NCBI RefSeq assembly: GCF_002160325.1
Contig: NZ_NFKJ01000002.1
Span: 186,001-250,000, forward strand
Source of the DNA: Lachnoclostridium sp. An181
GTDB taxonomy: Bacteria; Bacillota; Clostridia; Lachnospirales; Lachnospiraceae
DNA: 64,000 nucleotides
Reading direction: 5' to 3'
Part shown: piece after piece, positions 15,947 to 32,070 of the stretch
Layout: the number at the start of each line of letters is the position of its first letter
Position numbering within the stretch: the first letter of the stretch is position 1
Notes under the pieces: model-generated
The model's input: the letters and a program-made list of their open reading frames with translations, nothing else
What the model was told of the DNA's origin: nothing
Database searches by the model: none
Made by a program: the position numbers and the translations under genes

Positions 15947-17716
15947 CTATTCTTTTTCCATCTCCAAAAATTCCCGGATGCCGCTTTCATCCACTTCGTG
16001 CACTTCACCTTTCTGGATTTTATATACCCGGCTGCACATACTAAATACACTCGGTCGGTGAGCAGCCACGATCACTGTCCGTCTTGGTTCTTTTTTCATA
16101 ATATTTTTCAGCACCTGGCTTTCTGTAGCCACGTCAAGTGCACTTGTGGCCTCGTCAAGCAAAAGCACCGGGGCATCCGCTAAAAGGGCGCGTGCAATGG
16201 AAAGTCTTTGTTTCTGTCCTTCTGAGAAACGTCTGCCAAGCTCTTTCACCTGTGTCTCCAACCCTTCTTCCAGTTTTTTCACAAACTCCCACGCACAGGC
16301 TGCCTTTAATGCCTGGATGACTTCCTCCACCTCCGCATCTTCCCTGACCATCCGCATATTTTCTAAAATTGTTCCCGAAAACATCGTATTTCCCTGCGGA
16401 ATATAGCCGAACAGACAGCGTGTTGCGGAAGATACCTGTAATTTCTCTCCTTCTGGATTTCCTATGTAAATTTCACCCTCCTTTGGATGAAACAACCCAA
16501 GAAGAAGGTTCAACGTAGTTGTCTTTCCACCGCCGGACGGACCGATGATCCCTACAATCTCCCCCGGCCTTGCAGTGATATTCACATTTCTGTATACTGT
16601 CACTCCTTCTTCGTACCAAAATCCGACATTCTCCATCCGGATTTCCACTCCAATTTCCCTTGCCTTCGTTTTGATCTTCATGGCCGGCTCATTATCTTCT
16701 ACATTTTCACGCGGCAGATTCGTTACCTCAATAATCCTCTCCACATTGATACAGGCGCGGATCAATGTCGGCACAAGTCCGATCACAGATGAAAAAGAAC
16801 CCCGCAGAGAACCTGACATGCCAAGATACATGGTCATTGTTCCGTAGCTGATGTCTCCCTGCCATAATCGGTATACAGCGAATCCATAACATGCATACCC
16901 GACAAGCTGACCCACAAAGGAGGTCACCATCATTGTCAGAGACTGGAATTTATTCTGCTCCAGAGAAATTTCTTCAGATTCCTCCTGGATATGGTGAAAC
17001 CGCTGGATAAAGTTGGGCACAAGTCCAAAAGCTTTGACAAGCTGAATATTTTGAAACGTCTCCTGATCAAAGACCATTTTATTGCTCGAAAAATCCTGTG
17101 TCTTTTTCGTATACTCTCTAAGCTTTGTCGTTGTAAATCTGGAGCTGATAAGTGAAACAGGGGCTCCTGCAAGAGCGATCATGGCCATAACGGGATCGTT
17201 TTGCAACATAATAACAAATGCCCCGACAAAACTGATGAGCACAGAAACCACATTCGGAATAAATGTCAAAACATGATTTGCCAACATTGCTGCATCACCG
17301 TTTATCCGGTACAATAAATCACCTGTCCGAAACTCCGAGACAGCCTCCCAGTCTGTCCATAAAACTTGTTCAAAGATATCAGCCCGGATTTCATTTGAAA
17401 TTTTAAGTCGTATTTTTAAGGATATCCTCATCCTTATAATGTTGATAAAAATCTGTCCTACTCCTATGCCAACATAAGCAACTGCCACTGATGCAATTTT
17501 GCGTGAATTGTATCCTGTGACAGCATCTATCAGCTCTTTAGAAACCATAGTGGTCCCGAGCCCCAAAACAGAACCCGATGACATCAGTACTGTATAAAAT
17601 GTAATCAGTATCCAGTATCTGCGCACATAAATTCCAAGCCATTTTAATTGGATGATAAGTTCTTTTAATCTTCCTTCACGGATTCTTTGTCTGATGTGTT
17701 TAATCTTTTTTAGCAT
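15947..17716 (-). CDS. ABC exporter, fused membrane and ATPase domains (accessory peptide locus)
   Basis: A 589-residue half-transporter of the exporter type. About six membrane helices fill residues 30-310, then the ATPase domain: Walker [10 protein letters not shown] near 400, signature FSEGQKQR, Walker [13 protein letters not shown] and a switch His. There is no N-terminal peptidase domain. Its start overlaps the HPr-kinase-like gene by 17 bases. In the paeninodin-type lasso clusters a similar exporter follows the kinase gene; here it is last in an operon with a PqqD protein and a radical SAM enzyme, so peptide export is the likely role (inference). Confidence 0.85.
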   Translation of the reverse strand: MLKKIKHIRQRIREGRLKELIIQLKWLGIYVRRYWILITFYTVLMSSGSVLGLGTTMVSKELIDAVTGYNSRKIASVAVAYVGIGVGQIFINIIRMRISLKIRLKISNEIRADIFEQVLWTDWEAVSEFRTGDLLYRINGDAAMLANHVLTFIPNVVSVLISFVGAFVIMLQNDPVMAMIALAGAPVSLISSRFTTTKLREYTKKTQDFSSNKMVFDQETFQNIQLVKAFGLVPNFIQRFHHIQEESEEISLEQNKFQSLTMMVTSFVGQLVGYACYGFAVYRLWQGDISYGTMTMYLGMSGSLRGSFSSVIGLVPTLIRACINVERIIEVTNLPRENVEDNEPAMKIKTKAREIGVEIRMENVGFWYEEGVTVYRNVNITARPGEIVGIIGPSGGGKTTTLNLLLGLFHPKEGEIYIGNPEGEKLQVSSATRCLFGYIPQGNTMFSGTILENMRMVREDAEVEEVIQALKAACAWEFVKKLEEGLETQVKELGRRFSEGQKQRLSIARALLADAPVLLLDEATSALDVATESQVLKNIMKKEPRRTVIVAAHRPSVFSMCSRVYKIQKGEVHEVDESGIREFLEMEKE

Positions 17717-18494
17717 CGTTGCAAAAAACCACCTGTTCTAACAAATTGACAGCGTCTTCATCCGGCAGACAGGAAAGCTCGTACACATCCGTCCCGCTAA
17801 GCAGGTGATCCAAAGTTTTCAGGCACAATTCGATTCCATTTTCCAGCCACTGTGGATAAAACACATTGCCGGAGACTTCTTTTACTTTTTCGAATCCCTC
17901 CAGTTTCCGTATAGAATTTCCTTTTGCCTGCTTAAGTACAATCAGCGCTTTTACCGGAACATTTGCATTTTCACAATACGGCGAAGAACCATGCCAAGGG
18001 GAGCCCCATCCCAAGAATTCTGTTTCTTTTTCCTGCACAAAAACAATGTCTCCATTGATGATCTTTGCTCCGCGGTATTTGCTCCACAACTCCGCCTGGG
18101 TTGTCTTTCCAATGCCGGATGGGCCAAGGAAAAGGATGCCTTTTCCTTGGAAATCAATAAGAGAGCTGTGGAGCTGGATGATATGACGCTGAACAGCGTG
18201 GGTGTAGAAAGCCTGAAGCAAGAGGATTTTCGCCTCTTCCTCCGATTTTTTGTAGATAGTGATTTGTTTCCAGTCCTTGTCAGCCAGCAGATAACTTTGA
18301 TTGTAAAGAATTAAATGTTTCATGTTTTCCGGAATTTCAAAATGAATAATCTGTTGATTATCGGTTAATATAGCAGGTGATTCTTGAATTCCAAAAACAT
18401 TCTGAGGGCATGCTCCGTCTACCAAAAACATATTATTTATATATAACAATTTAGTTTCAGCCTCAAACTTAATATCCACAATTTTATAAAACAT
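17700..18494 (-). CDS. HPr kinase-like P-loop protein
   Basis: The 264 residues contain GILFLGPSGIGKTTQAELW, a Walker A of the HprK/PEP-carboxykinase-like fold, near residue 120, followed by KIINGDIVFV and GWGSPWHGSSPYC, which match the HprK-like kinases found in peptide-modification clusters (PadeK/ThcoK type). Those kinases phosphorylate a side chain of a precursor peptide. The regular HPr kinase has an N-terminal domain absent here. It sits between the unrecognised 118-residue gene and an exporter. Kinase activity and target are inferred. Confidence 0.8.
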   Translation of the reverse strand: MFYKIVDIKFEAETKLLYINNMFLVDGACPQNVFGIQESPAILTDNQQIIHFEIPENMKHLILYNQSYLLADKDWKQITIYKKSEEEAKILLLQAFYTHAVQRHIIQLHSSLIDFQGKGILFLGPSGIGKTTQAELWSKYRGAKIINGDIVFVQEKETEFLGWGSPWHGSSPYCENANVPVKALIVLKQAKGNSIRKLEGFEKVKEVSGNVFYPQWLENGIELCLKTLDHLLSGTDVYELSCLPDEDAVNLLEQVVFCNDAKKD

Positions 18495-18505
18495 CTATTT
18501 CTCCA

Positions 18506-18862
18506 CTAACCAGGCATGGATATGCATCCTTTGGTATAATATTCACTATGCATTAATTTATAACAGAAATCTGTCACTCCAAGCTCCCCGGCTCTAGTTA
18601 TCCATGTAGCAAAAATATCATTTAAGTTTCCATGTCTGTTATAGTGATTTACTATATCTTGCTCATTTGTTATTCCTGCATATCCTTGAAATGGATTTCC
18701 AGGTTCATCTAAACACCAACTTATCCCTGTAAACCCACCACCTTCTCCAGCAGAAACCTCATATGTCAAATAATATCCACTTGTTGTATCCGCATCGGAA
18801 GGTATCACCGCTCTAGCAGTCACACTGTTAGCCTCAACCGGCACATAAACGGTATCCATCAT
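18506..18862 (-). CDS. Unrecognised 118-residue protein in the radical SAM operon
   Basis: I do not recognise it. The ATG at 18862 overlaps the radical SAM stop (ATGA), with GGAGAGTGGAG as ribosome site; a second ATG follows at once. The protein starts MMDTVYVPVEANSVTARAV, has a Gly-rich middle (GEGGGFTGISWC), and ends FCYKLMHSEYY..KGCISMPG, with three Cys in all. No signal peptide or membrane helix is seen. Its place between a maturase and a kinase suggests either a modified substrate with a long leader or a partner protein; neither can be shown. Confidence 0.7.
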   Translation of the reverse strand: MMDTVYVPVEANSVTARAVIPSDADTTSGYYLTYEVSAGEGGGFTGISWCLDEPGNPFQGYAGITNEQDIVNHYNRHGNLNDIFATWITRAGELGVTDFCYKLMHSEYYTKGCISMPG

Positions 18863-19926
18863 AATCTCCACTCTCCTTTTTCTTCATCATAATACTGTTT
18901 GATTCTATTGCAAAATTCTTCTCTAACATGATGCGGACTTCCGCACTCTGATGTCAGTGTCGCCGCACATTTCACACAAGCCTTCTGAACATTACAACTT
19001 TTACATTCTTCCGGCCACTCCAATTGCTCTTCATACTGCACCAAACTTTGCCAGGCATGGGGAAAGCCTTTTTCCCTAACTGAAATATTTGGTTCATTCA
19101 TAAAGCTGCAAAATCTCATCTTTCCATCCCAGGTGATCCAGTAACCAAGGCGGTAATCTTTACAATATGTACAGGGCTTTCCCTCTGGACTCACCACATC
19201 ATGTTCCAACAGATAACGAATTCTCTCTTTGTCTGTTTCCAGTACAATCCGTGAATCTGAAATCTCTTTATTATCACCCCCACGCACCGACAGCCGAATT
19301 CCTCCATTTGCCAGCCAAGGTAGCTGATTGACATATGCATAAAATGCCATCCTTTTGATATCATCTGCATTTTGCCGGACAATGGTACTCACAAGTTGTA
19401 CCGGAATCTTCATCTCTTTTAAAATTTGTATTCCTCTGTCCACTCTGGAAAATCCATTCTTCACCTTGCAAACCGCCTCATAAATCTCATTGTTTGAGCC
19501 ATAAAGTGTAATCTTTACACTCCGCGGCGGATATTCTTCCAGCAATGTTCTATACTGTTCTATCATGGAAGCATTTGTCTGCAATGTAATAAAAAATCCC
19601 ATCCTTGACACGGCTTTATAGATTTCTTCAAATTCCGGATGAAGAAAAGGCTCCCCTCCGGTAATACAAAGCCAAGTGGTCCCTGCCTCTTTTGCCTCCT
19701 TGGCAATCTGAATCCACTCTTTCGCCGTAAGTTCCTTCCCTTGCTTTGCAATCTCTTCTTCTTTTAAATGTACATAACACATCCGGCACTGAAAATTACA
19801 TCTGGGTGTCAATTCAAAGGTACCGGAAATGGGAATTGCTTTTGCAAAAGCCTCCTCCCACACTGCTTTATAAAACGGATCCAGCCATTCCATTCTCCTG
19901 CAGGCTGGTTCATACTCATATGCCAT
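18859..19926 (-). CDS. Radical SAM/SPASM-domain peptide maturase
   Basis: The 355 residues have the radical SAM cluster site CNFQCRMC (CxxxCxxC) near residue 43, the ITGGEPFLHP stretch, and a C-terminal Cys-rich SPASM-like region: CTYCKDY, RFCSFMNEPN, CKSCNVQKACVKC, CGSPHH and a final C. Such enzymes use S-adenosylmethionine radicals to install thioether, C-C or epimer changes on peptides. It lies 5 bases after a PqqD-like gene, the usual recognition partner. The chemistry here is unknown. Confidence 0.92.
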   Translation of the reverse strand: MAYEYEPACRRMEWLDPFYKAVWEEAFAKAIPISGTFELTPRCNFQCRMCYVHLKEEEIAKQGKELTAKEWIQIAKEAKEAGTTWLCITGGEPFLHPEFEEIYKAVSRMGFFITLQTNASMIEQYRTLLEEYPPRSVKITLYGSNNEIYEAVCKVKNGFSRVDRGIQILKEMKIPVQLVSTIVRQNADDIKRMAFYAYVNQLPWLANGGIRLSVRGGDNKEISDSRIVLETDKERIRYLLEHDVVSPEGKPCTYCKDYRLGYWITWDGKMRFCSFMNEPNISVREKGFPHAWQSLVQYEEQLEWPEECKSCNVQKACVKCAATLTSECGSPHHVREEFCNRIKQYYDEEKGEWRL

Positions 19927-19931
19927 TCATA

Positions 19932-20252
19932 TCATCCCCTTTTAACAGGTAATTTTACAAATGTCTTTCCACGGGCTACTCCATCATCTAAAATATTATT
20001 TCGCTGTAATGTCTGAATAAATTTTTTAATATCCAGGGACGCTACCTCCTTGGTCACACCACTGTAATGCTCCAGTATCCGCTCCACTAAATCCTCTTCT
20101 TCAAATTCATTTTCCTGCATATATTCCCAAAGATATGCGGCTGAAGAAGAAATGTAGACAATGGATGTCACTTCCTGTACCCTCTTTCCTGTCGGCACAA
20201 CCACATACTGCCCGGCCACTTCCCGTAACACAAGACCATCTTTTAATTTCAT
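19932..20252 (-). CDS. PqqD family RiPP recognition element protein
   Basis: The 106-residue protein has the PqqD winged-helix pattern: KDGLVLREVAGQYVVVPTGK at the start, an SSAAYLWEYM helix, ERILEHYSG, and a final helix (SLDIKKFIQTLQRNNIL). PqqD-like domains bind leader peptides of precursors and present them to maturases. It is followed at 5 bases by the radical SAM gene. It also has a basic C-terminal extension absent from the shorter homologue at 26532. Confidence 0.88.
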   Translation of the reverse strand: MKLKDGLVLREVAGQYVVVPTGKRVQEVTSIVYISSSAAYLWEYMQENEFEEEDLVERILEHYSGVTKEVASLDIKKFIQTLQRNNILDDGVARGKTFVKLPVKRG

Positions 20253-20271
20253 CTGTACCGCCCCTTCACTT

Positions 20272-21321
20272 TTATTTATTATAGAGAACCTTCCTCAAAT
20301 ATTCCTGGTTCTTCTCCAAATCTGGTATCAGTACCATCATTTCTCTGACAACTGCGGACTGATAAGCTCCGTCTACAGGGATTCGGTAACTCTCTGCTGT
20401 TTGAACATGCATATTCACCACTTCCCATGCATAACCGAGAATCTGGCCATTTGACAGATCCGTGGTAATATGCGGCAAAAGCTGATTGATCGTTTCCACT
20501 GTCTTCGCAGGGCTTGTCTGTTTCATTTTTTCAAACAATGCAAGCAGTATCTGCCTTTGCCGGTCTGTCCTTTCATAATCGGAGTTTCCTACATAACGGA
20601 TTCTTGCATACGCAAGCGCCTGCTCTCCAGTCAAATTGTAAATTCCAGCTCCTAGATTCTCTGAATTTTCATTCTTCCAATTCCCGGAAGACTGATTTAA
20701 ATGGTCTGCCTCAGCCTGATTCAGCTCTACAGCCACGCCCCCCAAAATATCGATGGCATCTTCAAATCCCTGAAAATCTACCTCTACATTCCCATCCACA
20801 TGAATCCCGAAATTTTTCTCGATCGTACTGTCCAGAAGACTCATGCCTCCAAATGCATAGGCAGCATTGATACGGTTGTCGCTGTACCCCGGAATCTGAA
20901 CATACAAATCTCTCATAAAAGAAGTGAGCATCACTTTTTTTTCTTTTTTATTGAATGTTGCCAATATCATGGAATCCGAGCGCTGCCGTCCCTGCCCTTC
21001 TCTTTTATCCTGACCGATCAGCATAATGTTCACAACATCTTTATCCTGCATGACAGTCTTATCTGCATCTTTCCAGATAATATCTTTTTCATCCACCCTT
21101 GGCACATCGTCTGGAAGGTTTGTATCTTTCTCAAAGCTCTCCTCCTCCCTTGCGATCCTGTCTTCCTCGCCAACTTTATTGACACGGTTTAGTGTCAAAA
21201 GCAATGCAGTGGAGGCACATCCAATGACAACTATGCACACTGCAAAAACAGCGATCAATATTTTCACCGCCAAAGGCAGTTTTTTTCTTCTTTTATTATC
21301 TATATTCTCGTTTTTCTCCAT
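20272..21321 (-). CDS. LytR-CpsA-Psr (LCP) family protein
   Basis: LCP enzymes transfer polymers from lipid carriers to peptidoglycan outside the membrane. The 349 residues show a cytoplasmic Lys-rich head, one membrane helix (about 18-37), and the LCP domain with NIMLIGQDKREGQGRQRSDSM, TSFMRDLYVQIPGY, INAAYAFGG, LNQAEADHLNQ and ALAYARIRY, the Arg/Asp residues of the active site. It is first in the operon before PqqD and the radical SAM enzyme (20-base gap), which is an unusual partner for peptide-modification genes. Confidence 0.92.
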   Translation of the reverse strand: MEKNENIDNKRRKKLPLAVKILIAVFAVCIVVIGCASTALLLTLNRVNKVGEEDRIAREEESFEKDTNLPDDVPRVDEKDIIWKDADKTVMQDKDVVNIMLIGQDKREGQGRQRSDSMILATFNKKEKKVMLTSFMRDLYVQIPGYSDNRINAAYAFGGMSLLDSTIEKNFGIHVDGNVEVDFQGFEDAIDILGGVAVELNQAEADHLNQSSGNWKNENSENLGAGIYNLTGEQALAYARIRYVGNSDYERTDRQRQILLALFEKMKQTSPAKTVETINQLLPHITTDLSNGQILGYAWEVVNMHVQTAESYRIPVDGAYQSAVVREMMVLIPDLEKNQEYLRKVLYNK

Positions 21322-21570
21322 TTGTCTTCTCTCCTGGTTTCTACAGTTTCTTTTTCAAATAGGATACTCCATTTAACAAGTTTCTATTAACCTTTTACTA
21401 AAACAACTCATGCGTATGCAGCTATCCGGGATTCTATACTGCCTTTCTACGGTTTCCTATATTTCTCCACAATTATACTTTCCCTGTTGTGTATATATTA
21501 TATCATACTGCCAAAATAATGGTATATTTTTTGTATTACTTTGTTATTTTGATATCTATATTTGACTATA
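21322..21570 (-). promoter_or_regulatory. Leader region with extended -10 promoter for the LCP/radical SAM operon
   Basis: This gene-free stretch contains on the minus strand TGATATAAT (TATAAT at 21502-21497), an extended -10 hexamer; the -35 is poor. The leader to the LCP start would be about 170 bases and AT-rich. The same TGATATAAT form occurs before the short peptide at 24760 and before the SPKTG protein at 30318. Nothing else clear is seen here. Confidence 0.5.
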
Positions 21571-21623
21571 AAAATCGACCCCTAAAAGTTAAATCTTCAG
21601 TCTAACTTTTAGGGGTCGATTTT
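21571..21623. terminator. Perfect 21-bp palindromic terminator
   Basis: AAAATCGACCCCTAAAAGTTA (21571-21591) pairs without mismatch with its reverse complement at 21603-21623 around an 11-base loop. T-rich sequence follows on both strands. It lies 59 bases after the stop of the large repeat protein and separates two minus-strand units. Confidence 0.85.
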
Positions 21624-21681
21624 CATTTTTCTTACTCTTTGCCAAGACCTGTTATTTAATAACTATTAAAAACATTTCTCT

Positions 21682-24552
21682 CTAGTACACATTAACATCC
21701 ACAGCAGCTAAATCCATTTTCTGTGTCACTTGTTCATCATAAGTAACATGCTCTGGTTCACTAAACACAAGAACACTATATTCACCTACTGTCAGCTCAA
21801 TCCATCCAGCTCCCCATCGGTCAAGTGGATTATTAGAATATTTACTCAATCCAATTGATTGACCATTGATCTCTGATGGAGCAAGAGTTCTGTTTCTATA
21901 GTAATTACTCAACTGTTTTCCTGCCACATTATTGACGATTGTCAAGCCCGGATTCTCAGTTCTATCACGCTCCATGATTGCCTTCTGTATCTCTTTATCT
22001 GTTGTATCAATATTCTCTTTTGTCGGAGCATACAAAGTTCCATATCCGGTTATACGAACTGCAGACTCATACTCTTCTGAAATCTCTTCAACAAATGAGA
22101 AAAGGGTCTCATAAGTCACTACATATTCTTCATCCTCGTTTACAACTTCGTTACCTTTTGTAACAATACTCATCAGTTTATCAAAAACTGGTGTCCAAGT
22201 TGCTTTCAGGGTTGTCTCATTTCTGAGCATATCCTCCGTAATTTCAGTTACCGGGATACCCTCTGCATCGACCCATTTATCAAATGCATAAACCTGGCTA
22301 TTATTTTGAACATCCTTAACTTTCGCACTTGATGTTCCAATATCACTGATTGTATAAACTACATCTTCCGAGTTATCATATTTATCATCCACATAGTGTA
22401 CGACTATTGGTTTTTCAGAAGTAATAACCTCTATTTGCAGATTATCTGTGACGTTATTTTTTGTGTAGACACCATTTACTGCTGAAACTTCTTCGCCATT
22501 TATAGCCACCTGATCAATCTGGTAAAACTCATCTGCTTCTACAGTAAACTGATAGCTGCCATCGTATTTGATACCATCCGCTGTTTCTGATACATTCTTC
22601 ACTGTTGCATGGTCTGTTTCATCATTTAAAACTGTTACGCTAAATGTCTGATCCTTGATTCCCGTTACCACAATAGTGAGATCCTCATTCACGGTCACAT
22701 TATAATACCCGTTGTCATCTTTTTCCACATATGTAGTACCGCTCTTTCCTACTGCCTCTACTTTTGCATTACTTATGTCATATCCCAGCTCTGGTTTCAG
22801 ACTGAATGTAAATGTGTCACCGGCATGTACTTCCGTACTCTCTGTAGTACTCAATTCAAACCCTGTTCCCTGTTTCAGTGTGACATTGTAAATATTTCTT
22901 TCCACATTTGCAACTGATACAACCTGATCTTTATCAACACTTGAAATTTTATAAACACCATTTTCCGGAGAGATAACAACAGAATTTACTTCCACAATTG
23001 GTTTTGATTCATTATAATTTTTGTCAAGTTCAATTTTAAAGGTAAAATCACTTCCCCAAGGTATCGTCGTATTCTCTAATTCTTCTCCCTCTTCAGATAC
23101 ATAGCGGAATCCCTCTCCAGAATTCAAAATAATCTGCTGTGTTTTTAAAGAGCCATTCTCAATACGAATCGTTGTATTTGCTGTAATCCCTGAAAGGATA
23201 TACATACCGTTTTCCCCGACCGCCTCACATGTTCCATTTGAAACCGTTACTGTAGGATTGTTATATCCTTCTTCCGGATTTACATAAAAGGTATAGTTTT
23301 CTCCATACTCTACTGCTTTTGGGCCTGCCTGCAAACTATAATGTTTTTCCCCTGGCTCTTCGTATGTGATGTTATATTGTTCCTTTGTTACTTCAACACG
23401 TACAATCTGGTCTTCCACAATATTTCCAATTGTATATACACCACCTACTCCACTAACCAACAATTTGTTGTTGGCAGTTACATCCTTTATAACATATCCC
23501 TCTGCAGGCTTTACTTTAAAGGAGACAGAACCATTATATCCTACTTCCTGAGTTGTTTTGAAGGCAATGCTTTGAATATCTTCAAATGTATATTCTCCGT
23601 TGTCGCTGTCTATAAAGTTTACCTGATAATGAATCGTTTCACCTGCAGTCACTGTTATCTTCACATCTCCAGTCACAGGTCCATAAGAATAAAAACCATT
23701 CGCTCCATTCACCTGTTGACCATTGACCTTTACCACAGGTTCCTCATATCCATTTTGTGGCACAACATAAAACTGTATATTTTCTCCATAGGACACTGTA
23801 GATGAGCCAACCAGACTAAAAGTATATGCATTTGTCGACTCCGGAACAGTAATTGTATATGTCTGCGGTTTTACTTCGATTGTTAATTGGGTATCTCTTG
23901 TGATAGGTTTTGTCGTTACTTCATATATAGTATCATCTGTACTCTCTTCATTTTTAATCTCGTTAATATTAAGCGATTCACCATTTTGTTTTACTACTAA
24001 GGAATTCTTGAATTTATCCTTAAGACTTACTGTAAAAGACACCTGTTCATTGGCATTTACTTCTCTTATTTCACCTGCTGTCGCACCACCGCCAATGATA
24101 TATTCATCACTATTATTTGGCCATGTAACAGTATATTTCTCAATTCCTTTTTGTGCGGACATATTTATGGTTCCATCTAAATCGGTAAGATCTACCATTA
24201 TCCACCAATAGGAACCATCCTCTTCCACATATACCGCCTCTTCATTCCCTTCTATAGAAAATATTGGCTGTTCTTCCGCTTTAACATAAAAGTCAACAAA
24301 ATCACCAAAAGAATCACCTTTTCCTGTAAGAACATACGAATCATTTTCTTTAGAAATATTATATTCTCCTTTTCCACCAGCTCCCATTGGCCTTTTTACA
24401 TCATCATAATATGTTACCCCATCCAAAATCGGAATTACAATCTTCTCCACATCTGCCGGTGCTGCTACACTTTTCTTAGCAGGCGTCTGTACTGCCGTCA
24501 AACACAATGCCACTACACAGACAAATGCAAGTACTTTTTTCCATATTTTCAT
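21682..24552 (-). CDS. Large secreted repeat protein with bacterial repeat (InlB B-like) modules
   Basis: The 956 residues begin with a signal peptide (KVLAFVCVVALCLTAVQT, then an AAPAD cleavage region). A unique N-terminal domain follows, then about seven repeats of roughly 70 residues of the form Y-x-I/V-T...V-x-Y-G-E-N/D-x-x-F-x-V-x-P-x-x-G-Y, each ending in a turn plus a short VTGDVKITV-like strand. Near residue 770 an FDKWVDAEG..ATW segment resembles an InlB B-repeat. No LPXTG motif or C-terminal membrane anchor is present. It sits 39 bases after a small peptide gene and shares its promoter. Confidence 0.85.
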   Translation of the reverse strand: MKIWKKVLAFVCVVALCLTAVQTPAKKSVAAPADVEKIVIPILDGVTYYDDVKRPMGAGGKGEYNISKENDSYVLTGKGDSFGDFVDFYVKAEEQPIFSIEGNEEAVYVEEDGSYWWIMVDLTDLDGTINMSAQKGIEKYTVTWPNNSDEYIIGGGATAGEIREVNANEQVSFTVSLKDKFKNSLVVKQNGESLNINEIKNEESTDDTIYEVTTKPITRDTQLTIEVKPQTYTITVPESTNAYTFSLVGSSTVSYGENIQFYVVPQNGYEEPVVKVNGQQVNGANGFYSYGPVTGDVKITVTAGETIHYQVNFIDSDNGEYTFEDIQSIAFKTTQEVGYNGSVSFKVKPAEGYVIKDVTANNKLLVSGVGGVYTIGNIVEDQIVRVEVTKEQYNITYEEPGEKHYSLQAGPKAVEYGENYTFYVNPEEGYNNPTVTVSNGTCEAVGENGMYILSGITANTTIRIENGSLKTQQIILNSGEGFRYVSEEGEELENTTIPWGSDFTFKIELDKNYNESKPIVEVNSVVISPENGVYKISSVDKDQVVSVANVERNIYNVTLKQGTGFELSTTESTEVHAGDTFTFSLKPELGYDISNAKVEAVGKSGTTYVEKDDNGYYNVTVNEDLTIVVTGIKDQTFSVTVLNDETDHATVKNVSETADGIKYDGSYQFTVEADEFYQIDQVAINGEEVSAVNGVYTKNNVTDNLQIEVITSEKPIVVHYVDDKYDNSEDVVYTISDIGTSSAKVKDVQNNSQVYAFDKWVDAEGIPVTEITEDMLRNETTLKATWTPVFDKLMSIVTKGNEVVNEDEEYVVTYETLFSFVEEISEEYESAVRITGYGTLYAPTKENIDTTDKEIQKAIMERDRTENPGLTIVNNVAGKQLSNYYRNRTLAPSEINGQSIGLSKYSNNPLDRWGAGWIELTVGEYSVLVFSEPEHVTYDEQVTQKMDLAAVDVNVY

Positions 24553-24591
24553 CTTTTTCGTTTCTCCTTTCCTTGATCGTACAGCGATCCC

Positions 24592-24717
24592 TTATTCAAA
24601 TTCATCCGCTCCGCCGTCATCAATGCCGCCAAACCCTGTAGAGTCGGAAGCCATATTGATTTCCTCAAATTTCCACACCTTTACTTCAGGTGCCTCATAT
24701 CTCTCTTTTTTCTCCAA
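24592..24717 (-). CDS. Short peptide with YxxP motif, candidate RiPP precursor
   Basis: A 41-residue ORF with a TTG start; AGGAGG lies 7 bases upstream, close to ideal. The first part, MEKKERYEAPEVKVWKF, carries the YxxPxV motif that PqqD-like proteins bind in lasso-type leaders. The last part is Gly- and Asp-rich (GFGGIDDGGADEFE). An extended -10 promoter lies 43 bases upstream and the repeat protein gene follows by 39 bases. It has no Cys. It could be a precursor peptide or simply a small protein; no lasso cyclase is encoded in the window. Confidence 0.6.
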   Translation of the reverse strand: MEKKERYEAPEVKVWKFEEINMASDSTGFGGIDDGGADEFE

Positions 24718-24759
24718 TTTTCTCCCTCCTTATAGGAATACTTGCCCAGCAACATATGT

Positions 24760-24765
24760 ATTATA
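24760..24765 (-). promoter_or_regulatory. Extended -10 promoter of the short peptide and repeat protein
   Basis: Minus strand TGATATAAT, with the TG of the extended -10 and TATAAT at 24765-24760. The -35 is weak. Bases 24766-24865, up to the ABC transporter stop, are AT-rich with no clear terminator, so read-through from the upstream ABC gene is possible. Confidence 0.55.
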
Positions 24766-24865
24766 TCACACTTGGGCGGAAAATTATATACTTTTTGTGT
24801 TAAATTAACGATTAATTCAGTTTATACTCGCTATCGCATTCTCCCCTTCTCGGTTTTTTTAACAA

Positions 24866-26548
24866 TTATATATCTTCTTTCACTTTCTTTTTCTCAATCC
24901 CCAGTACTTGATCGCAGTATTCTAATATAGCACTTCTGTGGGAGATGCAGAGAATTGTTTTGTTTTTCAGGTTTTTCAGGTTCTGTATCACCAGTTTTTC
25001 TGTATCCTGATCCAGGGCAGAGGTACACTCGTCCAGCAAAAGAATAGGCGCGTCTGCGATCAGAGCTCTGGCAATGGTGATGCGCTGAATCTGACCTTCA
25101 GACAGCCCAATCCCTCTCTCCAGCAAAACCGTGTCCAGTCCGTCAGGCAGTTTTTGTATTTCTTCCCATATACACGCCGCCTTTGCCGCCTGCTCGATTT
25201 CTTCTTTGCTGACATGCTCTCTTCCAAACACCAAATTTTCCCGTATAGTTCCAGACAGCACAAGGTTGCCCTGGGGAACATAAGAAAAAGCATTTCTCAC
25301 ACCTGGATTGACGCGGATACGAGAATTTTTACATTCCAAAAAGAGTTCTCCATTTTCCGGGTTCTGAATGCTGAGCATCAATTTCATCAACGAGCTTTTT
25401 CCTGCTCCGGACTCGCCCATGATCGCGGTAACCGTTCCTTTTGGAATAAAAAAGGAGACATCCTCCAGCACAGTCTCATCCTCGTCATACCGAAATGTGA
25501 TATGCTCGCCTTTGATTCCGAGGAATTCCTCCTGAAATGTTTTCATATCCCCGATCCGTTCACCGACCTTCTCAGTTTTAAGTTTCTCAATCTCCATTAA
25601 GCGCTCCGCTGATCCAAGCATGGAATAGTACTGCGGAATCAGTCCGGATATGTTTCGCATCGGGGAACGTATCTGGCTGATGATCTGCAAAAACGCTGTC
25701 AGCGTTCCAAAGGTAAAACGTCCGCTCACGATGCCAAATGCTCCCCACGCCAGTGCTGCATAGTATCCCACTGTAAATACGATGTATACACATGTATTGG
25801 TAAAGTTGGATACTGCATTTCTCTTCAGGCGTATCTTATAGTTTTCCCGGTGAAGATTGTCCAGTTTTTGATTGATGGCTGTTTCATTGGCAAAAGACTT
25901 GATAACGATCACATTTTCCAGGCACTCCTGTACAAAAGAACGCACTCTCCCGTTTGTCTCCTGCACCTGGCGGTGAAGATGACGGAAACGGGAACTGAAT
26001 ATTCTGCTGCCAGCAGCTACCACCCCGCCAAGGGCCATGACCAAACACGTAAACCTCCAGTCCATGACAAGCAATACACCAAGCCCTGCCAACAGTTTCG
26101 TCATCAGTGAAAGAGCCTGTGGAATCAAAAGTGTAATGCCATTGACTACAATGTCAACATCGCTTGTCATACGGTTGAGCAGTTCACCGGAATGAATCTT
26201 TTTCATGTCCTGATAATCCTTCTGTAATAATGACGCAAACAGCCTTCTCCTCATTTTCATCTCCAGCCTGCTGCTTACCCTCACTCTTACATTACTGTAT
26301 AGAATATTAAGCACACCCTGCAGGATGATCAATACAAAAACAGCACCTATCAGTATCTCGACACTTCCCTCTTTCGCCCCAGTTACAACGTCTATTAACC
26401 GGCTGGAGACAAGTGCAAGTATAATAAAGCTTGCCGACAGCATCATTCCCAGCACGGCAAGCCCCATCACATATCCGATCTGTTTTTTCTCATATTTCCA
26501 TAACCATTTAACCGGTCCCTGATTGTTCTTATTATTTTTCCAGCTCAT
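24866..26548 (-). CDS. ABC exporter, fused membrane and ATPase domains (second)
   Basis: A 560-residue half-exporter. The ATG at 26548 (MSWKNNKNN) has GGAG 6 bases upstream, inside the end of the PqqD gene, which it overlaps by 17 bases; longer frames are unlikely. Six membrane helices are followed by Walker A GESGAGKSS, signature LSEGQIQR and Walker B LLLDECTSALD. There is no peptidase domain. The overlap with a PqqD gene and the short peptide gene downstream suggest it exports a modified peptide (inference). Confidence 0.85.
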   Translation of the reverse strand: MSWKNNKNNQGPVKWLWKYEKKQIGYVMGLAVLGMMLSASFIILALVSSRLIDVVTGAKEGSVEILIGAVFVLIILQGVLNILYSNVRVRVSSRLEMKMRRRLFASLLQKDYQDMKKIHSGELLNRMTSDVDIVVNGITLLIPQALSLMTKLLAGLGVLLVMDWRFTCLVMALGGVVAAGSRIFSSRFRHLHRQVQETNGRVRSFVQECLENVIVIKSFANETAINQKLDNLHRENYKIRLKRNAVSNFTNTCVYIVFTVGYYAALAWGAFGIVSGRFTFGTLTAFLQIISQIRSPMRNISGLIPQYYSMLGSAERLMEIEKLKTEKVGERIGDMKTFQEEFLGIKGEHITFRYDEDETVLEDVSFFIPKGTVTAIMGESGAGKSSLMKLMLSIQNPENGELFLECKNSRIRVNPGVRNAFSYVPQGNLVLSGTIRENLVFGREHVSKEEIEQAAKAACIWEEIQKLPDGLDTVLLERGIGLSEGQIQRITIARALIADAPILLLDECTSALDQDTEKLVIQNLKNLKNKTILCISHRSAILEYCDQVLGIEKKKVKEDI

Positions 26549-26807
26549 CAATCGCTCCAACTTCTTTAAGACGGCCAAGAAATGTATCCAAATCCGCCCT
26601 TGCTTTTTCTTCTTTGACCTCATACCTTTCCAGCATGGTATATAAAATCTCGTCTTTTGACATCCCTTTTTCCAGACACTTCCAGATACATTCTCCGGTA
26701 CTGTTCAGATTCATCATACCTTTAAAAGTTTCTCTTGCTTTGCCAACAGCTACAATTACCGGAACATCCGCTACACGCCGCAGGATAAATCCTTCCCGAA
26801 TTCTCAT
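26532..26807 (-). CDS. PqqD family RiPP recognition element protein (second)
   Basis: The 91 residues match the PqqD fold: REGFILRRVADVPVIVAVGK, NLNSTGECIWKCLEKG, a YTMLERYEV helix pair and a DLDTFLGRLKEVGAI final helix. It lacks the C-terminal extension of the 19932 copy and differs in sequence, so the two may bind different leaders. It directly follows the NodB-like gene and overlaps the exporter at its end. The tight packing shows it is a real gene. Confidence 0.85.
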   Translation of the reverse strand: MRIREGFILRRVADVPVIVAVGKARETFKGMMNLNSTGECIWKCLEKGMSKDEILYTMLERYEVKEEKARADLDTFLGRLKEVGAIDELEK

Positions 26808-27791
26808 TTACTCTTCCTCCTTCTTTTTCTGCAATTCTTCTATTTTCTTTGTCTGTTCCTGTTTATACTGTTCAAATGCCTGACGGTTTTGTTCCGTGGC
26901 TTTTCTTGCTTGCTCTTTTACGGCAAGGTATCCGCTGAAATTCCCAGCTCCAATCTTTCCTTCCGTCTGCTTTTGGTGTACATACTCCAAAAGCCTCACA
27001 AGATTTTCCATACTTTTCTCTTTTGATACATCCCATGTGACAGCACCTGTATAATCAGAAAGGATCAGCGGCTTTTTCTGTGAAATTGCCTGTCCGATGA
27101 CATCCTGTACCAAAGTCATTTGACTTCTTAGAGAAAGATTCTGACATTCCATCACATTCTGTTCTTCCTCGTTCTCAGAGCTTGCCAGTATACTCTCATT
27201 GGCAGCTTTTGCCCCACAGATTTGAAATCCAAGTTCATGGACCACCGGATAAATCTCCGCCTTTGCCTGTTTGTATTCCTGTCCTTCAAACAGGTAAGAT
27301 ACGGCTCCAGGATACCCTTCTTTTTTCAACTGTTCCTGAAAGGAGCGCAGGGTACTGGCCGCTTTCTTGGCGTCTTTTCCTGTACTGCCTCCCACAGCAG
27401 TGTCCCATCCGGCATCCAGAAGTTTTTTGTAATTTGCTTTTGAGATCTTTCCCGCCTTTGTACCCGGCAGGGCCCCATTGTTCAGTACCACTGTTCCCTT
27501 AAGTCCAAGCCTTTGCATGGCAGGGAAAATTTTTGTCATAAGCTCCCCATCAGCGGCAGAAAAAGCTAAAATACAGTATCCGTCCATTTCCACATTTATT
27601 TCACTTTCCCTTTTTGCAGTCTCATCAGTGATTTTCTGGATCTCCAAGTCATATTTAGCTATCCTCTCCTGTTTCTTTACAAGCTGTTCCTGCTTTTCCT
27701 TATCATCTTTATTCCAGCTCCACAAAAGCGCGCCTGCAAGGATTACCAATATCACTGCTACGACACGCACCGCAACTTCCTTTTTCTCCAT
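26808..27791 (-). CDS. Membrane-anchored NodB-fold (polysaccharide deacetylase-like) protein, catalytic residues missing
   Basis: The 327 residues have one N-terminal membrane helix (about 10-27), a coiled-coil linker, then a NodB-like core: YCILAFSAADGELMTKIFPAMQR, GLKGTVVLNNGALPG, KANYKKLLDAGWDTAVGGSTG, and a later VVHELGFQICGAK. In active deacetylases FDDG and a HxxxH metal site appear at these places; here they are FSAADGE and GGSTGK. It is therefore probably inactive or a binding protein. A long Gln/Glu/Lys coiled coil closes the protein. Its first-gene position links it to the PqqD-ABC operon. Confidence 0.75.
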   Translation of the reverse strand: MEKKEVAVRVVAVILVILAGALLWSWNKDDKEKQEQLVKKQERIAKYDLEIQKITDETAKRESEINVEMDGYCILAFSAADGELMTKIFPAMQRLGLKGTVVLNNGALPGTKAGKISKANYKKLLDAGWDTAVGGSTGKDAKKAASTLRSFQEQLKKEGYPGAVSYLFEGQEYKQAKAEIYPVVHELGFQICGAKAANESILASSENEEEQNVMECQNLSLRSQMTLVQDVIGQAISQKKPLILSDYTGAVTWDVSKEKSMENLVRLLEYVHQKQTEGKIGAGNFSGYLAVKEQARKATEQNRQAFEQYKQEQTKKIEELQKKKEEE

Positions 27792-28013: not shown

Positions 28014-28739
28014 TTATTCTTTTTCTTTATCCGCCAAATCACCGTAGTAGCTGCCGTATTTCTTGCTTCCATATTCTTTTCCATAATATTTGCTGTAATA
28101 CCCGCGGTTCTTCTTATGATCCACCTTGTTGAGCACAACGCCCAAAACTGAACAGTCAGCAGTTTCCAGTTTCCTTTTTACTTCCTGGACAAGACGGTAT
28201 TTTACTTTTCCAGACTCAATCACAAGGAGCGCTCCATCTGTATCCTTGGCAATGATAGAAGAATCCACGACCAGTCCCAATGGGGCACTGTCAATGATAA
28301 TATAATCATAAACTTCGCGGAAAGATTCCAGCATACTCGAAAATCTCTCAGAGGAAAGCAATTCTGTAGGATTTGGCACGACAACACCGCCAAATAAAAT
28401 GTGAAGACGGGGAATATTTGTCGCCATCACAGTGTCCGCCAGCGCGCACTGTCCGGACAGAAAATGTGACAGCCCTTCGTCAATCCCGTCAATTCCAAGC
28501 CTTTTTGGCATTACGGACTTTCTCATATCTGCGTCTATCAAAAGTACATTTTTCTGCAGTTCCGCAAAGGAAACAGAAAGGTTTATCGCTGTCTTTGTCT
28601 TTCCCTCGCCCGGTGTGCAGCTTGTGATCACAATCACCTTTTTGTCGTCGCCACAGAACTGAATGTTGGTGCGAAGTTCATTCAGCTCTTCTCTTGTGCG
28701 GTAACTTGGTCTCTCATAAGCAATCTGAATTTTTTTCAT
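28014..28739 (-). CDS. CpsD/CapB-type bacterial tyrosine kinase
   Basis: Cytoplasmic BY-kinase that, with a Wzz-type activator, controls polymer export and length. The 241 residues contain Walker A TPGEGKTKTA near residue 45, Walker A' LLIDADMRKS near 70, Walker B IIIDSAPLG near 145, and a C-terminal Tyr-rich tail (YYSKYYGKEYGSKKYGSYYG), the autophosphorylation region. It is the last gene of the surface operon. The phosphatase partner CpsB is not seen in the window. Confidence 0.93.
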   Translation of the reverse strand: MKKIQIAYERPSYRTREELNELRTNIQFCGDDKKVIVITSCTPGEGKTKTAINLSVSFAELQKNVLLIDADMRKSVMPKRLGIDGIDEGLSHFLSGQCALADTVMATNIPRLHILFGGVVVPNPTELLSSERFSSMLESFREVYDYIIIDSAPLGLVVDSSIIAKDTDGALLVIESGKVKYRLVQEVKRKLETADCSVLGVVLNKVDHKKNRGYYSKYYGKEYGSKKYGSYYGDLADKEKE

Positions 28740-28766
28740 GTCAATCTCCTGTCATCTTCTTATTCT

Positions 28767-29537
28767 TTATTGTGTCTCCACAAGCACTGCGTTTACGAGC
28801 AGTCTGTGTGTTTCCTCTGAGCCAACACATGTACTCATCGTTATTATCTTATCCTCCGGGGTCACCTGAATATTATCCGCATATACATTTCTCATGTCCC
28901 TGGAATCCTTCAAAGACTGAAGGAATGCAGCTCGGTCCTCGGCATTATTGAAATCATAGGCATACAACAGATGTCTGTCATCATAGATGACTGCAGAGAA
29001 TATTTTATATTTGTAGATATGTTCCGGCGTATATATGGTAACATCCTGATTCTGCTCCATAAATCCATCTTCCAGATAACGGTGCAGGTCTTTAAACATT
29101 GTTCCATCACGCATCTCATGTCCGTATATCACAGTATTATAGTCTGAAAAATCCTTGCTGTTGTATTTCTGCGTATAAATGGAACCGGCAACCGCCTCCT
29201 GTTTTTCCCATGTATGATTCAGATAATATTCGTCATCCTCTGTCTGCAGAATCGGATAATCGATTCTTGTTCCCGGCACATTGATCCACGCATATACCTC
29301 CGGATTTGTCTGCTGCAGTGATGCAAAGTCTATCGGGATCTCAGGTGCCGGCTTTTCTTCTTTCTCCTCCTTGGTAATGTCCACTTCCACCTGTTCTACT
29401 TTTTGTTTTGCTTTGTCTTCAGCCTCTTTTGCCTTTAGCTCATTACGAAAATAGTTGGCCGCAGCCAGCATACAAACTGCTGCTATCACAAGCAGCACAG
29501 CAATCACGATCAGTCTAACTCTCTTTTTTTCCTTCAT
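28767..29537 (-). CDS. srtB: Class B sortase
   Basis: Sortase that attaches proteins to the cell wall. The 256 residues have an N-terminal membrane helix and class B signatures: a long acidic linker, FASLQQTNPEVYAWI, GTRIDYPILQ, the His of NTVIYGHEM, the Cys of MSTCVGS and a later Arg (THRLLVNAVL). The neighbouring gene upstream (29615-30265) encodes a protein with an SPKTG motif that fits as substrate. It is 27 bases before the BY-kinase. Confidence 0.92.
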   Translation of the reverse strand: MKEKKRVRLIVIAVLLVIAAVCMLAAANYFRNELKAKEAEDKAKQKVEQVEVDITKEEKEEKPAPEIPIDFASLQQTNPEVYAWINVPGTRIDYPILQTEDDEYYLNHTWEKQEAVAGSIYTQKYNSKDFSDYNTVIYGHEMRDGTMFKDLHRYLEDGFMEQNQDVTIYTPEHIYKYKIFSAVIYDDRHLLYAYDFNNAEDRAAFLQSLKDSRDMRNVYADNIQVTPEDKIITMSTCVGSEETHRLLVNAVLVETQ

Positions 29538-29563
29538 CTTCTCACCACGTTTCTTTTATAAAC

Positions 29564-29591
29564 AAGGGCAGAAGTTCTCACTCCTGCCCTT
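29564..29591 (-). terminator. Terminator-like hairpin between the SPKTG protein and sortase
   Basis: AAGGGCAG (minus strand 29591-29584) pairs with CTGCCCTT (29571-29564) around a 12-base loop, followed by GTTTATAAAAG. It has a short T run, so partial termination is plausible, giving more substrate than sortase message. Confidence 0.5.
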
Positions 29592-29614
29592 CACTACCAC
29601 CTGCTGTTTAAAAA

Positions 29615-30265
29615 TTATCGATTGTATTCTTTTTTCTTCAAACCAGTGGCAATCACGATCGCTCCAAGTCCTACAGCCATTCCCATTACCGGAACAGACA
29701 CGCCTGTCTTTGGAGATTCCGTTCCCACGCTTGTGCCGGATTTTAAGGTTGTCTTGTCAACCACGAATGCAACCGGAGACAGAGAGTCAAATGTACCTTT
29801 CATCGTTCCCTCTCCAATTGTAGTGTCAATTACTTCCCATGCATTTCCATCATAGTGCAGAATCGTTCCTTTTGTGTCCTCCACAACACCTTTTGCGGAA
29901 AATGTGAGTGTCACAGGAAATTCTACCTGCCCGATCGTTCTAGATTCTTTTACATCCAATACAATAAGGTCACTGTCTCTGGACGCCCCTGTGATATCTT
30001 TCAGATTTAGATCTGCCTTTACCTTTTCAAATCCATCTGTAGTCTTTATGTTATCCACAACGTCCTGATACTGTTCCGGAATCGGTGTCTCCACAATGAT
30101 CAGTGACTTGATGTCCTTTCCGTTTTTATCTGCCGCTGATACCAATGTATTGTTTACCGGCGTTGTTGCCACACTGCTCGGAATCGGTCTTGCAAATGCC
30201 GTCATACCGATGCATGTGACTGCAAGAGCAACTGCACTGACTGTTTTCCATATCTTCATCCTCAT
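29615..30265 (-). CDS. Secreted protein with C-terminal SPKTG sorting signal
   Basis: The 216 residues start with a signal peptide (KTVSAVALAVTCIGMTAFARP). The middle has two beta-rich segments with LIIVETPIPEQYQDVV and SLSPVAFVVDKT. The C-terminus reads SPKTG, then a hydrophobic helix (VPVMGMAVGLGAIVIATGL) and KKKEYNR, the tripartite sorting signal. The start at 30265 has AGGAGG 8 bases upstream. It likely is anchored by the adjacent class B sortase. The domain family is not recognised. Confidence 0.85.
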   Translation of the reverse strand: MRMKIWKTVSAVALAVTCIGMTAFARPIPSSVATTPVNNTLVSAADKNGKDIKSLIIVETPIPEQYQDVVDNIKTTDGFEKVKADLNLKDITGASRDSDLIVLDVKESRTIGQVEFPVTLTFSAKGVVEDTKGTILHYDGNAWEVIDTTIGEGTMKGTFDSLSPVAFVVDKTTLKSGTSVGTESPKTGVSVPVMGMAVGLGAIVIATGLKKKEYNR

Positions 30266-30317
30266 AATTGATTCCTCCTAATCATGATAACAATCTATAT
30301 TTCTTACCATATTTTTG

Positions 30318-30346
30318 ATTATATCACAGCTACACTTCTTTGTAAA
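30318..30346 (-). promoter_or_regulatory. Promoter for the SPKTG protein
   Basis: Minus strand TTTACA (30346-30341), a 17-base spacer, then TATAAT (30323-30318) with an upstream TG. It overlaps the end of the LCP gene, giving separate control of the surface protein and sortase. Confidence 0.65.
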
Positions 30347-31286
30347 ACCATTTTATAACTAATTCTTTTGTCTTCTCATCATCCACCAGATACTGCGCAT
30401 GTCCGTCTTTTAACTGTACATTTCCAGGCAGGACTGTGATGTCATCCGTTATCTTATAATCTGAAAGATCCTCCAGTTCTTTTGCACTCATGTTCGTCAC
30501 CATGTATGGCTCCAGCTGCCGGTATATAGACTGATAGTCTCCGCTCTCCACGGACTGCATCTGTCTGATGAGCGCCTGCATAAACTGCGCCTGTCTCTCC
30601 ATACGCTCGTTGTTCCCTTCCAATGACTCCTGATCTCTGGAGCGCACATATTTTTCCGCTTTTGCCCCGTCCAAAGTTACAGTGGCGCCCTCCTCAAACG
30701 AAGGATCGATCTTTGTATAATCCTTTGGCACTGTCAAGGTGACTCCCCCAACCGCATCCGTAGCTGCAGTAATGCCTTCCAATGTCAAAGAAAGATAATC
30801 CTGAACGTGAACTCCAAACAAAAGCTCTGATACTTTTTCCGCAGTCAGGCGGCAGCTTTTCTCTTTTCCGTCGCCGTAAGCATACTGCAAAGTGATCTGT
30901 CCTTTCTCCGTGGTGATGTGTTGTCCGTTAAAATCATAGATATCGACATCAACCATGGAATCCCTGGATATCTGCAGAATCTGTCCTGTTTTTTCTTTCG
31001 TGTTTAAGACCAGAAGATTGATGCTGTCGGACTGTCCGTTTTCCCCCGGAGTCTGCGAAAGCTCTGCCTTTTCCTCTTTGTCCACTCCCAAAAACAAAAC
31101 CGTTTTAATCTCTGCATTAGTCTCATATTGTTTTCCGTTATATGTAATATACTGATCCTGTGTATCCAATTCGCCGCTGAGCACAGGTTTTTTCTCCTTA
31201 TCCCCGTGCAAAAGAATGTATGCAAAAACAACCAGCACCAGGATCACCAATAAGATCCCAACTGTCTTTATCCTGCTTTTTTTCAT
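30330..31286 (-). CDS. LytR-CpsA-Psr family protein (exopolysaccharide attachment)
   Basis: A 318-residue LCP protein. The ATG at 31286 overlaps the Wzz stop by one base (TGATG); an in-frame TTG before it is unlikely. It has an N-terminal helix (about 10-28) and the LCP domain: TVLFLGVDKEEK, SDSINLLVLN, QISRDSMVDVDIYDF, LQYAYGDG and EKYVRSRDQES. Relative to typical LCP proteins the PPGN-type segments are simplified. Its place after Wzz supports a role in linking the exported polymer to the wall. Confidence 0.88.
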   Translation of the reverse strand: MKKSRIKTVGILLVILVLVVFAYILLHGDKEKKPVLSGELDTQDQYITYNGKQYETNAEIKTVLFLGVDKEEKAELSQTPGENGQSDSINLLVLNTKEKTGQILQISRDSMVDVDIYDFNGQHITTEKGQITLQYAYGDGKEKSCRLTAEKVSELLFGVHVQDYLSLTLEGITAATDAVGGVTLTVPKDYTKIDPSFEEGATVTLDGAKAEKYVRSRDQESLEGNNERMERQAQFMQALIRQMQSVESGDYQSIYRQLEPYMVTNMSAKELEDLSDYKITDDITVLPGNVQLKDGHAQYLVDDEKTKELVIKWFYKEV

Positions 31287-31996
31287 CAACTTTCACGCAC
31301 TTTCTTTTTCTTTTCCAGCGGTAAAGATGCCAGGACATTGAGTCCAAGATATTTCTGTACATCCTCCGCTGTAGAAATCTTATCATTCATCAATACCTGG
31401 ATGATAACCAATAAAATCACGAGCACTGCCCCTACGACACCGCCCAGAAATGCATTTTTCATAAGATTCGGGCTGGACGGTGCAACCGGAGACACTGCCT
31501 TTTCCATCAGATTCGGACGGTCTGTGTTCATGACCTCCGCTACGCGGTCAGCCGCCACTTCAGCAAGTTTGTTGGATATTTCCATCGCCACATCCGGATC
31601 CGGGTTCGTCACTGTCAGTTTCAAGAAATGTGTGTCCGCCGGGTTTGACACGGATACAGAAGAGGCAAGCTCACCGTAACTCATGTCCAGATTCAGCTCA
31701 TTCAATGTTTTTTCCAGCACCGCCCTGCTCTGCGCTAAGATCTGAAAATCCGCGGACAGCTGATTCGTCAGATCCATATTGGCAATGGAGCTGATGCTTG
31801 TTGAATTTCCAAAGATATAAATGGTGGATGTCGCAGAATACTGCGGCGTCACAGCATATTTTGTGTATCCTCCCGCTATCAGGACACCGATGATCCCAAC
31901 GATAATAACCAGCCAGATTTTACTCCATATCGCATGTACCAATTCTAATAAGTCAATTTCAGTTTCTTCCCGGCTTTCCAGTAGTTCTCTGTTCAT
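31286..31996 (-). CDS. Wzz/YveK-type polysaccharide chain-length protein
   Basis: The 236 residues have two membrane helices: one near 30-50 (KIWLVIIVGIIGVLIAGGY) and one near 190-210 (AFLGGVVGAVLVILLVIIQV). Between them is the Wzz extracytoplasmic domain with YSATSTIYIFGNS and the preceding PVAPSSP Pro-rich segment near the second helix. The C-terminal cytoplasmic tail (AEDVQKYLGLNVLASLP) is the region that activates CpsD-type kinases; that kinase is encoded three genes downstream. Confidence 0.92.
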   Translation of the reverse strand: MNRELLESREETEIDLLELVHAIWSKIWLVIIVGIIGVLIAGGYTKYAVTPQYSATSTIYIFGNSTSISSIANMDLTNQLSADFQILAQSRAVLEKTLNELNLDMSYGELASSVSVSNPADTHFLKLTVTNPDPDVAMEISNKLAEVAADRVAEVMNTDRPNLMEKAVSPVAPSSPNLMKNAFLGGVVGAVLVILLVIIQVLMNDKISTAEDVQKYLGLNVLASLPLEKKKKVRES

Positions 31997-32070
31997 ATCT
32001 TTCTCCTTTTCTGCACATTCTATTGCTCATCTTAGCATATGTCGCATAAAAGCACAAGTTATTTTCTCTT

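Follow-up and report, generated by a model that had tools for sequence, protein, structure and literature searches.

A conserved PqqD, radical SAM, kinase and exporter cassette with a hypervariable substrate candidate in polysaccharide loci of gut Clostridia

Organization of the locus

A stretch of 64,000 nucleotides from Lachnoclostridium sp. An181 (contig NZ_NFKJ01000002.1, positions 186,001 to 250,000), referred to below as the window, was analyzed with respect to two neighboring gene units that encode PqqD proteins and ATP-binding cassette (ABC) exporters. All genes of both units lie on the minus strand, unit 1 at 15947-21321 and unit 2 at 21682-27791. Unit 1, the main subject of this work, encodes an LCP protein, PqqD1, a radical S-adenosylmethionine (SAM) enzyme, a protein of ~118 amino acids (aa) named U, an HprK-like kinase and the exporter ABC_A, in this order, and its neighboring genes overlap or are separated by short gaps. 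The same composition, with the LCP gene first, had been described in an earlier note on this DNA, and both the family searches and the coordinates agreed with it. The features of unit 1 and the terminator-like sites on either side were as follows, where RiPP stands for ribosomally synthesized and post-translationally modified peptide.

20272-21321, minus strand: LCP-family glycopolymer transferase, first gene of unit 1 (PF03816, 4e-41)
19932-20252, minus strand: PqqD1, stand-alone RiPP recognition element (RRE; PF05402, 4e-11)
18859-19926, minus strand: SPASM-type radical SAM enzyme (PF04055, 9e-24)
18506-18865, minus strand: U, ~118-aa substrate candidate, matching no family
17700-18494, minus strand: HprK-like kinase (PF07475, 6e-6)
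15947-17716, minus strand: ABC_A, exporter with transmembrane and nucleotide-binding domains in one polypeptide (PF00664/PF00005)
15947-15903, minus strand: terminator-like hairpin and T run after ABC_A
21620-21574, minus strand: strong terminator-like hairpin with a 20-bp stem, between unit 2 and unit 1

The U gene starts with an ATG at 18865 or 18862 and overlaps the stop codon of the radical SAM gene. No C39 peptidase domain was detected in ABC_A by Pfam. The two units had previously been regarded as one split locus; this view was not supported, as the 20-bp-stem terminator-like site lies between them and only unit 1 recurs as a block.

Conservation of the unit 1 cassette

A search of ~85,000 species genomes with a radical SAM profile yielded 33 loci, and a related set of 31 (L011-L041) was compared. 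The order PqqD-radical SAM-U-HprK-ABC was fixed in 30 of these 31 loci. The count includes L023, where the contig ends before the ABC gene; the exception was L026, where the contig ends after the radical SAM gene. Because unit 1 recurs as a block, its gene order is, on these comparative grounds, far from chance. The co-occurrence of neighbors among relatives, proposed earlier as a check, was borne out for unit 1 but not for unit 2, the membrane protein of which was found in 0 of 298 other genomes of the family. The LCP gene at the front of unit 1 was a feature of the window only and was absent from that position in the related loci.

The mean pairwise identity was 68% for PqqD and ABC, 62% for the radical SAM enzyme, 54% for HprK and 26% for U. 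Enough sequence was available downstream of the cassette in 29 loci; in 28 of them the next genes encode an Ig-like membrane protein (~273 aa) and Wzz/CpsD, often followed by a gene for a CpsB-type PHP protein. Two-component genes were located immediately upstream of the cassette in about 22 loci, and the same spot upstream of PqqD (L012-L040) was seen to hold two unrelated types, either LytTR/GHKL or His_kinase. It was considered whether U could be a pheromone for the adjacent two-component system, which was judged unlikely, since the sensor kinase genes next to the cassette are ~99% identical between loci L017 and L019 and U is not.

The U protein was rare, being encoded in 12 of 397 genomes of the family and 2 of 329 of the phylum. 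According to record titles, the cassette seems strongly over-represented in chicken-gut isolates and metagenome-assembled genomes, which account for most of the records. Relatives of the radical SAM enzyme were found neither on plasmids nor in viral contigs.

Additionally, incomplete copies were observed. A satellite PqqD-U-HprK group lacking the radical SAM and ABC genes (L115:8557-10063) occupies the same contig as a full cassette (L022), and a second genome carries PqqD-U alone (L116:7174-7839) plus radical SAM-U-HprK elsewhere (L117:4599-6735). Therefore, the association of U with PqqD and the kinase persists when the radical SAM gene is lacking. Among 22 genomes, U never occurred in isolation, and antigenic variation by means of orphan or silent U copies was rejected, as each extra copy inspected adjoined PqqD and/or a kinase or lay in a second cassette.

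Properties of the U protein

U was present in every complete cassette, and together with the N-terminal domain of the kinase it was the fastest-evolving part. All 32 aligned copies retained Met1, Tyr6, Gly43 and a Cys near the C-terminus, and nearly all retained W34, W49, L80 and W87. The C-terminal Cys, the only invariant one, was positioned 2-10 residues from the end in all copies and corresponds to C113 in the window. In the AF2 model (mean pLDDT 74) residues 1-26 were disordered, and residues ~31-118 were ordered. No family, PDB or fold match was found for U, both Foldseek (E <= 10) and VIA-align returning nothing, and this lack of a match does not demonstrate a new fold.

The N-terminal motif of U was Y-x-x-V/P. 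The sequence W/Y/LxxP/L/I is known to be recognized by PqqD-type RREs (PMC12710340), and the resemblance of the U motif to it was taken as a lead. The N-terminus of U may act as a leader. The dN/dS ratio of U reached 0.64 versus 0.09-0.20 for the partner genes in the L033/L034 pair, and ranged from 0.23 to 0.64. It was raised but stayed below 1, thus positive selection was not supported.

Judging from the sequence comparisons, U is best read as the substrate of unit 1. It had been overlooked in this role because it is not a short peptide. The precursor proposed earlier for the radical SAM unit, a 41-aa YxxP peptide from unit 2, was set aside, since unit 1 has its own candidate in every complete cassette.

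The HprK-like kinase and its joint variation with U

The PF07475 match of the kinase was below the curated cut-off. The kinase model was confident (pLDDT 94) and aligned over its full length to the PEPCK fold (Z 14.0, rmsd 4.7, 238 residues to 1xkv), and both HPr kinases and PEPCK were among its Foldseek matches. The protein consists of a hypervariable N-terminal domain (residues 1 to ~89/97) and a conserved catalytic domain of PEPCK/HprK fold. The mean pairwise identity across loci was 18% for the former versus 70% for the latter. Residues H109, G127, G129, K130, T132 and D149 were invariant in 44 kinases.

The variable parts were replaced together. The loci L017 and L019 share mostly 95-100% DNA identity over ~10 kb, save one main block of ~50% identity. 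This block, mainly at 11066-11695, begins 3 bases ahead of the stop codon of the radical SAM gene and ends near residue 97 of HprK. A similar, larger block of low identity was found between L011 (10598-11760) and L020, where it also extended over the region coding for the C-terminus of the radical SAM enzyme.

Further, the identities of U and the HprK N-domain co-varied more than the background of the cassette would explain (Mantel r 0.48; partial Mantel r 0.43-0.48, p 0.0005), the value of 0.43 being obtained with ABC, the HprK C-domain and the radical SAM enzyme held constant. After two clades were dropped, r was 0.30-0.33 (p about 0.001 or less). The diversity of U points to the kinase as its putative specific partner.

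The radical SAM enzyme and comparison with known systems

The radical SAM sequence contained SPASM-type cysteines (C255-x12-G-x4-C273 and CxxCx5CxxC). Both the CxxxCxxC and the auxiliary-cluster cysteines were near-invariant in 20 relatives, and the match to the Pfam SPASM model was marginal (0.65). The closest solved sequence was that of SkfB, an enzyme that forms thioethers (6efn, 1e-18); this similarity spans the common core and does not fix the reaction. A SPASM radical SAM enzyme with a conserved cysteine pattern is a feature of sactipeptide and ranthipeptide systems, the products of which contain a Cys-to-carbon thioether. Like the SkfB/StsB-type sactipeptide maturases, unit 1 has a Cys-bearing substrate candidate and an RRE. 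Unlike them, its candidate is long and usually has one Cys near the C-terminus, and a kinase is present.

Unit 1 shows the general RiPP arrangement of an RRE and a modifying enzyme encoded next to a candidate substrate whose N-terminus resembles a leader (PqqD1, the radical SAM enzyme and U). With paeninodin-type lasso clusters it shares PqqD (B1), the HprK-like kinase and the ABC exporter, and a nucleotidyltransferase (PF14907), another paeninodin-type likeness, was found near several relatives. The kinase of such a cluster phosphorylates its precursor (PMC7533575). Unit 1 differs in having a radical SAM enzyme and a ~118-aa candidate with a predicted fold, and in lacking B2 and the cyclase. 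A lasso reading was rejected for both units, because the B2 leader protease (PF13471) is absent from the whole host genome and no cyclase is at the locus. Two PF00733 genes (~620 aa) are on contigs C23 and C3, the window being on C12, and none occurs in the annotated region. The earlier statement that a lasso protease and an asparagine-synthetase-like cyclase were missing here was therefore correct.

The best named cassette was SynChlorMet (TIGR04248-TIGR04251), in which ScmC (HprK-like), ScmD (PqqD) and ScmE/ScmF (radical SAM) make up the same trio of protein types. The hidden Markov model matches were weak (ScmC 1e-5, ScmF 7e-22), and membership was rejected on the scores of 24.9/125 bits for ScmC, 78.2/400 for ScmF and 70.2/400 for ScmE, with ScmD not reported for PqqD1. 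SynChlorMet has two radical SAM enzymes, whereas unit 1 and the related cassettes have one, and unit 1 further differs by its ABC exporter, its hypervariable ~118-aa candidate and its polysaccharide context. The HPr-rel-A system (TIGR04352/TIGR04353) combines an HprK-like kinase with a PqqD-like chaperone, as does unit 1, and is also found in a polysaccharide context; the radical SAM enzyme and U are additional in unit 1. Membership in HPr-rel-A was not accepted either, as TIGR04352 was unmatched and TIGR04353 matched only PqqD2 (19.7/35 bits).

Wider clostridial cassettes (L072-L083) share PqqD, radical SAM, HprK and ABC genes with unit 1, often beside polysaccharide genes, but unlike unit 1 they usually include an S26 signal-peptidase-like protease. 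Some distant clostridial cassettes encode in the position of U a protein of 93-107 aa with a YxxP start and an IADxC motif. A library of anti-phage defence systems gave only generic radical SAM and ABC matches. The individual parts of unit 1 are known. Neither the named cassettes nor the open-licence literature searched showed these genes in combination, a substrate candidate of this nature or the swap module; all three are new within that search, such absence not being proof.

Unit 2 and the surrounding genes

The features of unit 2 and of the polysaccharide block upstream of both units were as follows.

26808-27791, minus strand: 327-aa membrane-anchored protein, NodB-like label unconfirmed
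26532-26807, minus strand: PqqD2 (PF05402, 5e-15)
24866-26623, minus strand: ABC_B exporter (PF00664/PF00005)
24592-24717, minus strand: 41-aa YxxP leader-type peptide (from translation, TTG start)
21682-24552, minus strand: 956-aa secreted repeat protein, N-terminus resembling a signal peptide
28014-33978, minus strand: polysaccharide block with CpsD-like kinase, sortase, 216-aa surface protein, LCP, Wzz and CapD-like epimerase (Pfam)

The genes for PqqD2, ABC_B, the 41-aa peptide and the repeat protein were all confirmed as described before, and a clear ribosome-binding site precedes the TTG start of the peptide gene. The NodB-like assignment of the 327-aa protein was not retained: Pfam, NCBIfam and PHROGs gave no matches and the PDB no convincing sequence match. 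Its possible analogues were encoded in L046 and L050 (16-23% identity). The 956-aa repeat protein had no Pfam or PHROGs matches.

Most homologues of ABC_B (34-42% identity) were encoded in clusters alongside PqqD and HprK genes. Clusters of this kind in L046, L049 and L050 also encode an S26-like protease, a peptide of 40-56 aa with a similar start and a large secreted protein, and others (L053-L055) encode proteins of ~640 aa, which match asparagine-synthetase-like cyclases in size. The YxxP peptide is paired with a large secreted protein in the window, as in L046 and L050. Short YxxP/FxxP genes were observed right before the genes of large secreted proteins, near PqqD, HprK and ABC genes, in L046:7968-17517 and L050:4537-12482. 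Such pairs are in tandem in L050, and the L046 and L050 clusters contain no radical SAM gene. By these comparisons unit 2 is a separate, weakly conserved system, which probably exports the short YxxP peptide encoded just ahead of the surface protein.

In the polysaccharide block, at 28767-30265, the sortase gene adjoins that of the 216-aa surface protein, which has a C-terminal SPKTG-type sorting signal. The genes downstream of unit 1 were of housekeeping type, as judged by sequence.

Proposed function and alternative explanations

We proposed that unit 1 is probably a self-contained RiPP-like maturation and export cassette of polysaccharide loci with U as its substrate. PqqD1 would present U through the disordered N-terminus with its Y-x-x-V/P motif, and the SPASM radical SAM enzyme would modify U, for which the invariant Cys near the C-terminus is a possible site. 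The HprK-like kinase would phosphorylate U, with the polymorphic N-domain recognizing the polymorphic U. ABC_A would then export U, probably to the polysaccharide-coated surface, and the product would act at or beyond that surface. The modified-peptide pathway linked to surface genes and matching no class that was found, as envisaged in the earlier note, was supported, but not as a joint pathway of two units, since unit 1 forms a complete set of genes that is conserved in the absence of unit 2.

Several observations weigh against this proposal. With 95-145 aa and a predicted fold, U is long for a RiPP precursor, and its alignment contains no invariant Ser/Thr as a phosphosite. A leader-cleaving protease gene, usual but not universal in RiPP clusters, was not found within the unit 1 cassette, and an S26-like protease was absent from all 31 loci and from the window, which leaves leader removal unexplained. 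The U loci lacking a radical SAM gene mean that the radical SAM step may be optional or provided in trans. Four loci have U proteins 58-66% alike and kinase N-domains only 13-24% alike, therefore the pairing of U and the N-domain is not strict; linkage within a recombining block alone can also give co-variation without binding. In the window, unit 2 intervenes between unit 1 and the polysaccharide genes, and the Ig-like protein of the related loci is missing.

We considered it unlikely that U is instead a polymorphic bacteriocin-like protein and that the N-domain of the kinase confers cognate immunity or controls a toxin instead of recognizing a substrate. The way in which U is replaced together with one partner domain does resemble toxin-immunity swapping, and both the ABC exporter and the satellite PqqD-U-HprK group in a genome that also holds a full cassette would suit antagonism. 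However, the variable domain is fused to a PEPCK/HprK-fold kinase and is not a separate immunity gene, U has no toxin-like family or fold match, and the link to polysaccharide chain-length genes is constant.

It is quite improbable that U is an accessory chaperone or regulator, with the true substrate being a short peptide encoded elsewhere, such as the 41-aa YxxP peptide. The latter does carry the recognition motif of PqqD-type RREs (PMC12710340), and the 93-107 aa proteins of distant cassettes are of the YEKP type. However, these proteins take the position of U itself, beside the radical SAM or HprK gene, and in other genomes unit 1 occurs without unit 2. The occurrence of U in every complete cassette and its rapid evolution, shared with the kinase N-domain, are also unlike those of a helper. 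Little probability was likewise given to a single pathway split over the two units and sharing the kinase and the radical SAM enzyme. In its favor, the units are neighbors on the same strand, and each encodes a PqqD protein and an ABC exporter. The closest analogues of unit 2 have a kinase, which unit 2 itself does not, and the genome has no further PqqD. Against this, a terminator-like site separates the units, each has its own exporter and substrate candidate, and the unit 2 membrane protein is missing from the other family genomes. Finally, U and the kinase N-domain are very unlikely to be merely weakly constrained sequence at a recombination-prone spot, as the dN/dS below 1 and the effect of linkage would allow, because a Tyr, a Gly and a Cys of U are invariant and several of its Trp residues nearly so, the kinase N-domain has a confident fold, the open reading frames are retained in nearly all complete cassettes and the replaced block stops at a domain border.

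Because relatives swap U together with the partner domain of the kinase, the comparison suggests a peptide system, at the surface or secreted, that diversifies rapidly and has not been described. More tentatively, the cassette with U as its substrate may represent a new class of polysaccharide-linked, kinase-modified RiPP-like proteins. The substrate and the recognition domain of the kinase would then form a polymorphic, swappable specificity module set in otherwise constant machinery for modification and export, and the resulting surface or secreted trait would diversify fast. The association of PqqD proteins with HprK-like kinases and radical SAM enzymes is seen repeatedly near polysaccharide loci, both here and in distant Clostridia, and has no agreed substrate. 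Here the comparisons strongly support U as a candidate, and since U and the kinase N-domain vary jointly, the target of the kinase can be tested directly. If the proposal is true, RiPP-type maturation would be linked to surface polysaccharide loci in gut Clostridia, and the cassette would illustrate how swapping between a kinase and its substrate can take place at the level of a domain.

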